Source of the DNA: Chthonomonadaceae bacterium | GTDB lineage: Bacteria; Armatimonadota; Chthonomonadetes; Chthonomonadales; Chthonomonadaceae | Reading direction: 5' to 3' | DNA length: 64,000 nucleotides | NCBI GenBank assembly: GCA_027459665.1 | Contig: DAIDHN010000016.1 | Location: 1 to 64,000, forward strand | In this document: in pieces, positions 3,643 to 7,241 of the stretch | How positions within the stretch are numbered: position 1 is the first letter of the stretch | Layout of the letters: every line of letters begins with the position of its first letter | The notes under the pieces: generated by a model | What the model was told of the DNA's origin: nothing | Databases searched by the model: none | Seen by the model: only the letters and a program-made list of their open reading frames with translations | Made by a program: the position numbers and the translations under genes

Positions 3643-3663
3643 CCGCAGGCTGCGCTGAAGTAA

Positions 3664-3697
3664 AAAGAGCGAAGAGACCCGGGTCTCTTCGCTCTTT
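3664..3697. terminator. Bidirectional terminator between tpiA and the convergent selenoprotein operon
   Basis: A perfect 17-bp inverted repeat with almost no loop, AAAGAGCGAAGAGACCC followed by its exact complement, so A and T runs flank it on both strands. It sits between two genes that end toward each other. Confidence 0.85.
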
Positions 3698-3712: not shown

Positions 3713-4240
3713 TTACTTTTTCTTGCGTGCTGCTTCCTGGGCAAGCAGATGCTGTATCATGGTTCTTACCACTTTCCAGTCGTACGAGCTGCCCACTATC
3801 TGGAAATGACGATTCAGCACCACCGTGAGCGGGATGGCGGTTACTCCGAAACGGGTTGCCACTTCCCCTTTGGGGTCTATGAGCAGAGGGTAGGTAACGC
3901 CATGTTTTTTTCTGAAGGCTCTCAGTTGAGAGAGCGGCATTTTCATTCCTTCAGGAACCGATATGCCTATTACCTGCACTCCCTCGTTGTGGTATGCCTT
4001 CCATACTTCTTTTTGCATATGAGGAGCCTCCTCATTGCACATTGGTCAATAAAAACCGTAGAAGCAGAGCGCTATGATGTGATGGGGAAACTGTTTCAGG
4101 TGCACCAGTCGGTTTTGGGCATTGCGCAGTGCAAAATCCTGTACAGTGTCTCCTTTCTGATATACCTTTGGCGCAGCGAGTGCAATGCCTGCACACATCA
4201 GGGCCAGCGAGGTGATCAGAACAGGTAGGCTTCTTTTCAT
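3713..4240 (-). CDS. Predicted exported thioredoxin-fold selenoprotein (TlpA/ResA-like, UxxC)
   Basis: Read through one in-frame TGA (4048-4046) this is a 175-residue protein. Residues 1-23 form a signal peptide ending ALAA. A TlpA-like thioredoxin fold follows, with the active site FYGFY-U-PMC-NEEAP (U65, C68) where homologues have FWATWCPPC..EMP, and the cis-proline motif FGVTAIP (P137). The TGA therefore replaces exactly the first Cys of the CxxC motif, the reading frame does not change, and a SECIS-like hairpin follows. GGAGGAG precedes the ATG. It is the last gene of an operon with two exported S41 proteins, so it probably acts in the envelope on disulfides. A nonsense-mutated pseudogene is the alternative, but it does not explain the position of the stop. 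Confidence 0.85.
4014..4048 (-). promoter_or_regulatory. Candidate bacterial SECIS element next to the in-frame TGA
   Basis: Six bases after the TGA the minus strand forms TGCA-ATGAGGA, loop GGC, TCCTCAT-A-TGCA: eleven base pairs with one bulged A. The apical loop starts about 17 bases after the TGA and begins with G. Both properties agree with known features of bacterial SECIS elements, which lie inside the coding region and are bound by SelB. No folding program was run. Confidence 0.7.
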
Positions 4241-4265
4241 TCTCCTCCTCTTTCTTGGCGGTTTG

Positions 4266-5735
4266 TTACCGTTTCACCGGTGCACCCACTGCATTCATGG
4301 CAGTGCGCACGGGCTGTGGTTTGGGTGAATACTGGCCGCGCACTTTTTGCAGCGCTGTTTGCAGCGGCATGCCCTGCAGCCTGTCTTGCAGAAAACTGAT
4401 TGCAGCATGCAGCTGATTATCGTCTTTCTTGTCGCTGAAATCCATAGGAGTCCACTTGGGCGATTCTTTTACCTTTATATCGGGCAGCAGGCCGCCGGTA
4501 TGTGGAATGCGCTGGTGGTCTTCATCTGTTTTGTAGTTGAGGTCGTAGTGTGAGGGCGTGAAGTAGAGAGCGGTAGTCAGGCGCAGGCACGAACCGTCAT
4601 CCAGCGGGAAGAGGGTTTGCACGCAGCCTTTTCCAAAGGTGCGCTCTCCAATCAGGGTGCCCACCCCATAATCTCTTACGCAGCCCGACACAATCTCAGA
4701 GGCAGAGGCAGTGCTGCCGTTTACCAGCAGCACCAGCGGCATGGGGTGGTAAGGGCTGGGTATATGTTCCAGTTTGCGCCCTTCTTCATACCCCGAACCC
4801 TCATGTATAATGACTGCATTGTCTCTCAGTTCCAGCTTGTTGTTGTGCTGTACAAAAATGGAAGCAGTTTTTACTGCCATGGTAAGCAGACCACCGGGGT
4901 TGTATCGCAGATCAAATATGAGGGCGCGCATTCCCTGCTTTTTCAGCGCCGCAAACGCATGGTTGAGCTGTGCCACTGTTTGTTCATTGAATTCATCCAG
5001 CACCACCCTTCCAATCTTGTTTTTGGGGTCTTCCATCCAGTATTCCACAATGGGCGGTTTCACCAGTGCGCGCACTATATGAAACTGCAGGGTTTTTTTC
5101 TTGCGTAGTATGGTGAGGTGAACTGTAGTACCTGCCGGGCCTTTGATTAGTTTTACTACATCGTCCACGCTTTTTCCTGTGCAGGGTTTGCCATTCACGG
5201 CTTCTATAATGTCGCCTGCTTTAATGCCTGCCTTTTCGGCTGGCCCGGTTTTGATGGGCATTTCTACCACGGTGTTGGGCGGTTCGCCCAGCAGCATGGC
5301 GCCTATGCCTTCAAAGTCGCCCCGGGTGGTAGTGTCTTGAAACTGGTTCCATTCATTTGGGGTCATAAAGCTGGTGAAAGGGTCGTACAGGTTCAGCAGC
5401 ATGCCTCGAATGGCATTGTAGGTGAGAGTGCGCACACGCATGCGGTTAATTGGCTTGCCGTAGTAGTTTGTGCGCAGCAGCTCTATGGCGGTACGGTAGT
5501 CTTCTTGTGGGGAATCTTTTTTGCTGACTGCCGCGGGTGTTTTGGCAGCGCTTTCTACAGGCAGTGTAGAGTGTTCAACATGAAACTGCACCAGCTGCAG
5601 TTTCACTCTCTGGTTGGCGCGCGCTATTGCTTTTCTGCTGCTCAGGTAGCCGGTTAGCAGTGCAATGGAAATAACGGCTACTGCAGCTGGGAGGAAGTAC
5701 GAGCGTTTGGTTTTGTTGCCGGCGGTTTCTGTCAT
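4266..5735 (-). CDS. S41-family C-terminal processing protease
   Basis: A membrane-anchored serine protease of the CtpA/Tsp type, 489 residues. One hydrophobic segment lies at about 13-31. An S41 N-terminal helical region leads into a PDZ domain (about 140-215, with FEGIGAML and AGIKAGDIIEAVNGKP), then the protease core with FDLRYNPGG. The catalytic dyad is intact: Ser344 in STASASE and Lys369 in RTFGKG. The ATG at 5735 is chosen because it follows the previous gene by 22 bases and the signal anchor fits; an upstream ATG at 5780 would overlap that gene. It probably trims or degrades envelope proteins. Confidence 0.93.
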   Translation of the reverse strand: MTETAGNKTKRSYFLPAAVAVISIALLTGYLSSRKAIARANQRVKLQLVQFHVEHSTLPVESAAKTPAAVSKKDSPQEDYRTAIELLRTNYYGKPINRMRVRTLTYNAIRGMLLNLYDPFTSFMTPNEWNQFQDTTTRGDFEGIGAMLLGEPPNTVVEMPIKTGPAEKAGIKAGDIIEAVNGKPCTGKSVDDVVKLIKGPAGTTVHLTILRKKKTLQFHIVRALVKPPIVEYWMEDPKNKIGRVVLDEFNEQTVAQLNHAFAALKKQGMRALIFDLRYNPGGLLTMAVKTASIFVQHNNKLELRDNAVIIHEGSGYEEGRKLEHIPSPYHPMPLVLLVNGSTASASEIVSGCVRDYGVGTLIGERTFGKGCVQTLFPLDDGSCLRLTTALYFTPSHYDLNYKTDEDHQRIPHTGGLLPDIKVKESPKWTPMDFSDKKDDNQLHAAISFLQDRLQGMPLQTALQKVRGQYSPKPQPVRTAMNAVGAPVKR

Positions 5736-5757
5736 AATTGGTTGTTTCCTCGTTTCC

Positions 5758-7116
5758 TCAAAGCTGGGCCGCAGCTGCATTCACTGCAGCATGGGGATTT
5801 GCAGAGCTGCTGGGCAGCTGTATGGCAGGTGAAAGTCCTTTGCTCAGGTCTTCGCCGCCTGCTGTAAATAGGTGCGCGGTAGTGATTTGCATTGCGGCAC
5901 CGCTGCTCAGGTTGGCAAAAAGCGAGAGGGTGTCATCTCCTGCGGTGCGGCTTCCTACCAGTTTTGCACCGCTGCCCTGCAGGGCTGCCGCCACCATTTC
6001 TGCCAGGCCGGCAGTTCCCCGGTTCACCATAACCACCAGCGGCAGATGCAGTGCATTGGGGGCAGAGTGAATGATCAGCGGGGTTGTTTTGCCTGCGTGC
6101 CGCTCTATTCTCGCCTCTACTCCGCCGCGGGTCAGCCTTGCCAGCAGGTTGCATGCCATTTTGTACCCATCCAGATTTGCATTGGGTGCTGCAGTGACTC
6201 CGCCGGGGTTGTTGCGCAGGTCAAGCACAATGCCGTGTGCATGGCCGGCATTGTCAAGCGCTGCCTGCAGCTCTTTTCCAGCCTGGGGGTTGAACTGGCG
6301 CAGGGCAATGTACTGCACGTTATTGGGCAGGCTGCTGGCCGCTACGGGCGGCACGGAGGTTTCTGCTGTAGTGAGCGATACCGTGACTGGTTTTGCCAGC
6401 CCCTGCCGGGTGTAGGTAATGCCCAGTTTTGTCCCTGTGCCTTCGGTGAGCCGCCGAAGTGCGCGGTAAAGCGATATGCCAGTTTGAAAACGGTTGGCAA
6501 TGGGGGTGAGTTCTGCCTGTTTTTGTACCAGGGTGCGCCCCATTTCTTTCTGAATGCGGGCTACGTCTGCCAGAATAGAATAGGCAATGATCCAGTGCTT
6601 GTTCAGGTAGGTAATGTGGTCTCCCGGCCGAATTCCCGCCTTGTCTGCCGGTCCGCCCGGCGCCACATCCATTACTGTGAGGTAGTCGTAATCTACATCC
6701 AGTTTTTTTTCATCGGTAATGCTCAGCATGGCTCCGATGCCGCTGTAGCTGCCCTGGTAGGCGCCCCGCATGGCGGCAGCCCTCACAGGCGCAAGGTACT
6801 GTGTGTTGGGGTCGTTGAGAGCGGTTACGATTCCCTCCAATGCGCCATTGCTCAGGTTTTGGTCGCCAAAATAGTTGCGTACATAGTCTGTGTGAATATG
6901 GTTCAGCACGCTTGCGAAAATCTGGGCGGGGGGCAGGTTGGGCGATGGCGTGATATTGGGGTTATTCTGTAGCAGAACAGCATGCCCGGCATCTGCCAGG
7001 TGAAGGCTGCCTGCCAGAGCGGCCGGGCCGGCCCCCAGTTTGCGCCCTGTAAAGTAGGCGCTTCCTGTTGCCAGCAGCAGCAGCAGCGCGAGAAATGTGT
7101 TTCTCAAAATCTTCAT
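5758..7116 (-). CDS. S41-family protease homologue lacking catalytic residues
   Basis: About 452 residues, with a signal anchor at residues 5-24, an N-terminal helical region, a PDZ-like segment (YSGIGAML, AGIRPGDHITYLN) and an S41 fold core with LDLRNNPGG. The dyad is lost: the Ser motif STASASE of the neighbouring paralogue corresponds to GTAGLAE here, with Gly replacing the catalytic Ser, and the FGKG Lys corresponds to AGDD. The protein is otherwise complete, so this looks like a pseudo-protease rather than decay. It is the first gene of an operon with the active paralogue and the selenoprotein. It may be a regulatory or scaffolding partner. Confidence 0.88.
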   Translation of the reverse strand: MKILRNTFLALLLLLATGSAYFTGRKLGAGPAALAGSLHLADAGHAVLLQNNPNITPSPNLPPAQIFASVLNHIHTDYVRNYFGDQNLSNGALEGIVTALNDPNTQYLAPVRAAAMRGAYQGSYSGIGAMLSITDEKKLDVDYDYLTVMDVAPGGPADKAGIRPGDHITYLNKHWIIAYSILADVARIQKEMGRTLVQKQAELTPIANRFQTGISLYRALRRLTEGTGTKLGITYTRQGLAKPVTVSLTTAETSVPPVAASSLPNNVQYIALRQFNPQAGKELQAALDNAGHAHGIVLDLRNNPGGVTAAPNANLDGYKMACNLLARLTRGGVEARIERHAGKTTPLIIHSAPNALHLPLVVMVNRGTAGLAEMVAAALQGSGAKLVGSRTAGDDTLSLFANLSSGAAMQITTAHLFTAGGEDLSKGLSPAIQLPSSSANPHAAVNAAAAQL

Positions 7117-7212
7117 TGCAACGCATACTCCACGACACCCCGGCATGCGGGGCGCAAAATAACCGATGAACTCCCTTGCACAATGTACAGAGGAGCTTTG
7201 TGTGCCTGCTAT

Positions 7213-7241
7213 ATTATACAATAATACGCAGAACCAGTCAT
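7213..7241 (-). promoter_or_regulatory. Promoter of the S41/selenoprotein operon
   Basis: On the minus strand ATGACT and a perfect TATAAT are spaced by 17 bases, about 100 bases before the first ATG. It lies in a 320-base gap (7117-7436) between divergent genes in which nothing else was recognised. Confidence 0.6.

Follow-up and report, generated by a model that had tools for sequence, protein, structure and literature searches.

The window analysed in this work is a stretch of 64,000 nucleotides from a Chthonomonadaceae bacterium (contig DAIDHN010000016.1). Three genes on the minus strand of the window form an apparent operon. The first gene, S41a (5758..7221), encodes an S41 protease (Pfam Peptidase_S41, 85 bits) and is also recognised by synteny. 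The second gene, S41b (4266..5780), encodes an S41 carboxyl-terminal protease with a PDZ domain (Peptidase_S41, 138 bits) that carries Cys386 and Cys398. The third gene (3713..4240) lies 25 nt downstream of S41b in the same direction, and a Shine-Dalgarno-like sequence, GAGGAGGAGA (AGGAGG-type), is located at 4241..4252 on the minus strand, 5' of its ATG at 4240. A perfect 17-bp palindrome followed by a T run, read from the sequence at 3661..3697 and belonging to neither strand, separates the third gene from the triosephosphate isomerase gene that converges on it and is likely a bidirectional terminator. The terminator scan, which demands a loop of 3-8, did not report this palindrome, and the promoter scan returned no more matches than were found in shuffles.

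The first-pass annotation of this locus had read two same-frame segments, separated by a single TGA, as one exported TlpA-like selenoprotein. The translation in which TGA is taken as a residue confirms one ORF of 175 codons (4240-3713, minus strand) whose sole interruption is the TGA at 4048-4046. The TGA encodes residue 65, which occupies the first position of a UxxC motif in the context FYGFY-U-PMC-NEEAP, as also indicated by the orthologue column, and the second position of the pair is Cys68. Two fragments are obtained when TGA is treated as a stop, as the annotation had expected of standard gene callers.

The protein matches Pfam AhpC-TSA (PF00578) with 75.4 bits (cut-off 26, E 5e-21) and Pfam Redoxin (PF08534) with 57 bits, so that it combines PF00578 with UxxC (U65-P-M-C68). 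Its N-terminus, MKRSLPVLITSLALMCAGIALA|APK, resembles a type I signal peptide of about residues 1-23 as judged by eye. By sequence, its closest relatives of solved structure are ResA-like. The AlphaFold model, built with seven orthologues as input, has a pLDDT of 85 and a pTM of 0.79, and ResA structures are among its top Foldseek matches (E about 1e-12, TM 0.77-0.86 by target). The model predicts a thioredoxin fold like that of the ResA structures, in which U65 is aligned with the first Cys of the ResA CxxC and C68 with the second. The thioredoxin fold and the U in the place of a CxxC cysteine that had been proposed from the letters are borne out by the AhpC-TSA match, the ResA-like model, and the Cys homologues described below. 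The score for the ResA subfamily NF002854 is 72.8 bits, which is below the curated cut-off of 170, and the match to NF041054 (WAxxUGC_long) is weak (23 bits, cut-off 300). No curated NCBIfam cut-off is reached, which suggests a divergent member that has not been curated. Strict membership of ResA was rejected since the score lies under the cut-off; the protein presumably works in a ResA-like manner and is not filed as ResA. A peroxiredoxin assignment was also rejected because the peroxidatic motif TxxC/TxxU is absent, as FYGFYUPMC has no Thr three residues ahead of U.

The RNA fold of the region behind the TGA exhibits a hairpin at 4014..4039 on the minus strand. The hairpin begins six bases 3' of the TGA and consists of 11 pairs with one bulged A, and its loop, GGC, begins 17 nt after the TGA. 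Its conserved core consists of 7 pairs (4035-4019, minus strand) with the apical loop GGC at 4028-4026. The SECIS-like hairpin of 11 bp described in the first-pass annotation, six bases behind the TGA and with a loop about 17 bases on, is thus confirmed with the addition of the bulged A. The predicted energy is -12.5 kcal/mol, which is matched by 3 of 200 shuffles, so that the fold is more than chance. Published rules for the bacterial SECIS comprise a loop of 3-9 nt, a stem of 4-16 bp, a G in the first two loop positions, a spacing of 16-37 nt, and an MFE <= -7.5 (PMC13188914). The loop GGC, the 11 pairs (7 in the core), the spacing of 17, and the energy of the hairpin all lie within these limits.

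The hairpin is also conserved at the level of codons and pairs. The hairpin codons AAT GAG GAG GCT CCT CAT are identical in seven orthologues (6/6), compared with 1/17 of the other invariant degenerate codons (Fisher p 7e-5). Compensatory changes occur at four of the seven stem pairs among 21 Sec-type sequences, where 98% of cells are paired and the stem passes, for example, through the series GAG..CTC -> GCG..CGC -> CGG..CCG. When the partner is slid by 1-3 columns in these sequences, the pairing drops from 98% to 30-57%. The covariation score is 0.350, whereas shuffles average 0.122 and 0/500 of them reach it; this count is not a probability, as the set consists of related sequences. Three further stem pairs are exhibited by 22 of the 24 distinct TGA sequences with the GGAGGCTCC core versus none of the 15 with other codons (p 5e-9). 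The 16 Cys homologues exhibit 34% pairing and no predicted structure at the hairpin position. In the Cys form L069, the peptide NEEAPH is kept and the codons AAC GAG GAA GCC CCT CAT break the hairpin. The broken hairpin under the same peptide and the absence of structure in the Cys homologues indicate that the RNA selection tracks the TGA and not the peptide. The hairpin is conserved beyond the need of the protein and, as judged from these comparisons, is under strong selection.

Six Chthonomonadaceae orthologues that are 35-47% identical to the protein all carry TGA in the Sec65 column (6/6). Further out in the phylum, the homologues differ at this column, some having TGA and the rest TGC or TGT, so that the expected Cys in place of U was found in the more distant homologues. 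The orthologues examined have no unrelated disruptions. The decay that would have spoken for a pseudogene in the first-pass annotation is therefore not seen; the TGA is common to all seven orthologues and the frames are otherwise intact. SelA was found in 13 of the 17 genomes with the TGA form versus 127 of the 274 other genomes of the phylum (p 0.014, hand-tallied). The TGA-form genomes without a SelA match (G014, G020, G063, and G209) are all fragmented drafts that are 61-92% complete. The four f16 genomes with a Cys form (G161, G162, G168, and G175) are absent from the SelA list. The genome G208 holds both forms, namely the Cys form L069 without the hairpin (G208:C77) and a Sec form, L114 (G208:C119).

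The genome of the window is 3.67 Mb in size and 99.9% complete, and its Sec genes and tRNA-Sec were located by family searches. The tRNA-Sec gene (selC) has the anticodon TCA. SelA is present with 418 bits. SelB scores 377 bits (cut-off 242) and consists of EF-Tu, beta-barrel, and SECIS-binding winged-helix domains. SelD is present and its gene adjoins that of tRNA-Sec. As a check on the claim that this organism decodes UGA as Sec, the first-pass annotation had named selA, selB, selC, and selD, and all four were recovered. The SelD frame itself contains a TGA in the context HCSGUAGK (L024, 1681 downward on the minus strand, G000:C3) and is a selenoprotein candidate, UxxK being the listed site of Sec-containing SelD. 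This in-frame TGA acts as an internal positive control for Sec decoding.

Other Sec proteins were met among the contigs compared. A second Sec protein of the related genome G007 (L041, 1423-2739, minus strand) has a long N-terminal domain, LolA/RseB-like by eye, fused to AhpC-TSA with the motif WUPAC, and is accompanied by the compensated hairpin GCGGAGGCTCCGC. Contigs of Krumholzibacteriia and other bacteria (L096, L097, L106, L107, and L109) carry a Sec-type FFANWUPVCGPEF protein near a Cys paralogue with WCPGCNEEA. The hairpin of these proteins, CCGGAGTTTTCGG, is of a different shape.

The gene structure, the SECIS hairpin, and the Sec machinery have been established computationally in this work; the incorporation of Sec, the export, the catalytic direction, and the electron donor are inferred. 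The gene is almost certainly that of a genuine selenoprotein, an exported ResA/TlpA-like enzyme that would reduce or exchange disulfides in the envelope. SelB with Sec-tRNA(Sec) would bind the hairpin directly 3' of the UGA and insert Sec65. The protein would be exported and adopt a thioredoxin fold of the ResA/TlpA-like type. The substrate disulfide would be attacked by Sec65, which lies close to the N-terminal end of the active-site helix, and Cys68 would resolve it, so that the enzyme would act on envelope disulfides, with peroxides being less likely substrates. The absence of the peroxiredoxin Thr motif favours disulfide chemistry over peroxide reduction. The re-reduction may be performed by a DsbD-type membrane reductase, and the genome encodes a DsbD_TM protein that is a candidate electron donor.

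Three other readings of the TGA were weighed against the selenoprotein. That the TGA is a nonsense mutation in a decaying gene, or a sequencing or assembly error in a misread one, would agree with the two fragments that a gene caller would see. However, the same TGA occurs in seven independent genomes that have no other disruption, and strong selection acts on the RNA hairpin that follows it, so that a pseudogene or an error is extremely improbable. Reading of the UGA as another amino acid such as Trp, through a reassigned code or near-cognate read-through, is very unlikely. The frame would indeed be open under any code in which UGA is sense, but the Sec65 column aligns with the catalytic Cys of homologues, tRNA-Sec(UCA), SelA, SelB, and SelD are all encoded in the genome, and the full hairpin accompanies TGA and never Cys codons in the sequences compared. 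SelD of the same genome also terminates at an ordinary TGA just ahead of the next gene, which indicates that UGA is not sense throughout the genome. Neither a pseudogene, nor a sequencing error, nor simple read-through accounts for the observed pattern.

An ATG at 4042 follows soon after the TGA in the window copy, and an internal ORF from this ATG (MCNEEAP...) could be imagined as the true product, with the hairpin regulating its start. This alternative start was rejected, and there is hardly any chance that it is used. No ribosome site lies ahead of the ATG, the product would be missing one catalytic residue together with the first half of the fold, and the ATG is not conserved, its place being taken in the orthologues by ACC, GGC, or other codons.

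The selenoprotein reading is compatible with a further proposal that adds a substrate to it. The operon with S41 proteases described in the first-pass annotation is a real layout, as the order S41a-S41b-Sec is kept in four genomes of three genera, namely the genome of the window and three related genomes of two other genera (G007, G010, and G012). Cys386 and Cys398 of S41b are 12 residues apart and invariant in these four syntenic genomes, and the presumed catalytic Lys precedes Cys386 by two residues. In the carboxyl-terminal protease 7rpq, which is the best solved homologue of S41b, these positions are occupied by Ser and Ala. The shared gene order and the invariant Cys pair suggest that S41b may be a substrate of the Sec65 protein. 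In such a dedicated partnership, Sec65-Cys68 would make or break a Cys386-Cys398 disulfide by the presumed catalytic Lys, and the protease activity would track the redox state of the envelope. We regard this partnership as rather unlikely, as the more divergent Sec orthologues do not adjoin S41 genes in the contigs seen, the comparison spans three genera only, and the Cys pair could be a structural or metal site. Slightly less probable again is a full two-part redox switch, in which the Sec oxidoreductase would control the disulfide beside the catalytic Lys and thereby couple selenium-dependent redox to envelope proteolysis in Chthonomonadaceae.

The findings in this work agree with the known families of selenoproteins. 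The Prx-like thiol:disulfide oxidoreductase (PF00578, UxxC/UxxU) is a listed selenoprotein family (PMC13188914, PMC9312934, PMC1794560), and thiol-disulfide isomerase-like (cd02966, UxxC) and UGC-containing TlpA selenoproteins are also listed (PMC13188914). Redoxin-family UxxC proteins are likewise among the selenoprotein families in reviews. Prx-like examples have been reported from, among others, Geobacter and further anaerobic deltaproteobacteria. The Sec65 protein shares with the Prx-like kind the Pfam family, UxxC, a bacterial host, and a predicted dependence on SelB. It differs from that kind, whose type member WP_010940744.1 was compared by description, in its Chthonomonadaceae host, signal peptide, conserved NEEAP hairpin, and S41 operon. 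The cd02966 and UGC-containing TlpA selenoproteins also have a TlpA/ResA-like domain with Sec, but the UGC type has U-G-C whereas the Sec65 protein has UxxC. Bacillus ResA, TlpA, and DsbE (CxxC) exhibit the same fold, active-site place, and conserved Ile-Pro, whereas their first Cys is replaced by Sec in the window protein. The first-pass annotation had overstated the novelty, since PF00578 UxxC selenoproteins are already a listed family; the Sec65 protein is a new, divergent member of the listed Prx-like UxxC kind and its novelty is modest. The literature search, with subscription papers outside its range, returned no paper linking selenocysteine to Chthonomonas, and its only match for selenoprotein and Armatimonadetes concerns Planctomycetes. 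No selenoprotein survey of the phylum was found in the literature searched.

The use of Sec is documented here with a SECIS of textbook quality in this phylum, where a gene caller that stops at the TGA would split or shorten the gene. The covarying hairpin provides a clean natural set of SECIS variants for testing the recognition by SelB in the phylum, and the protease neighbour S41b is a testable candidate substrate.
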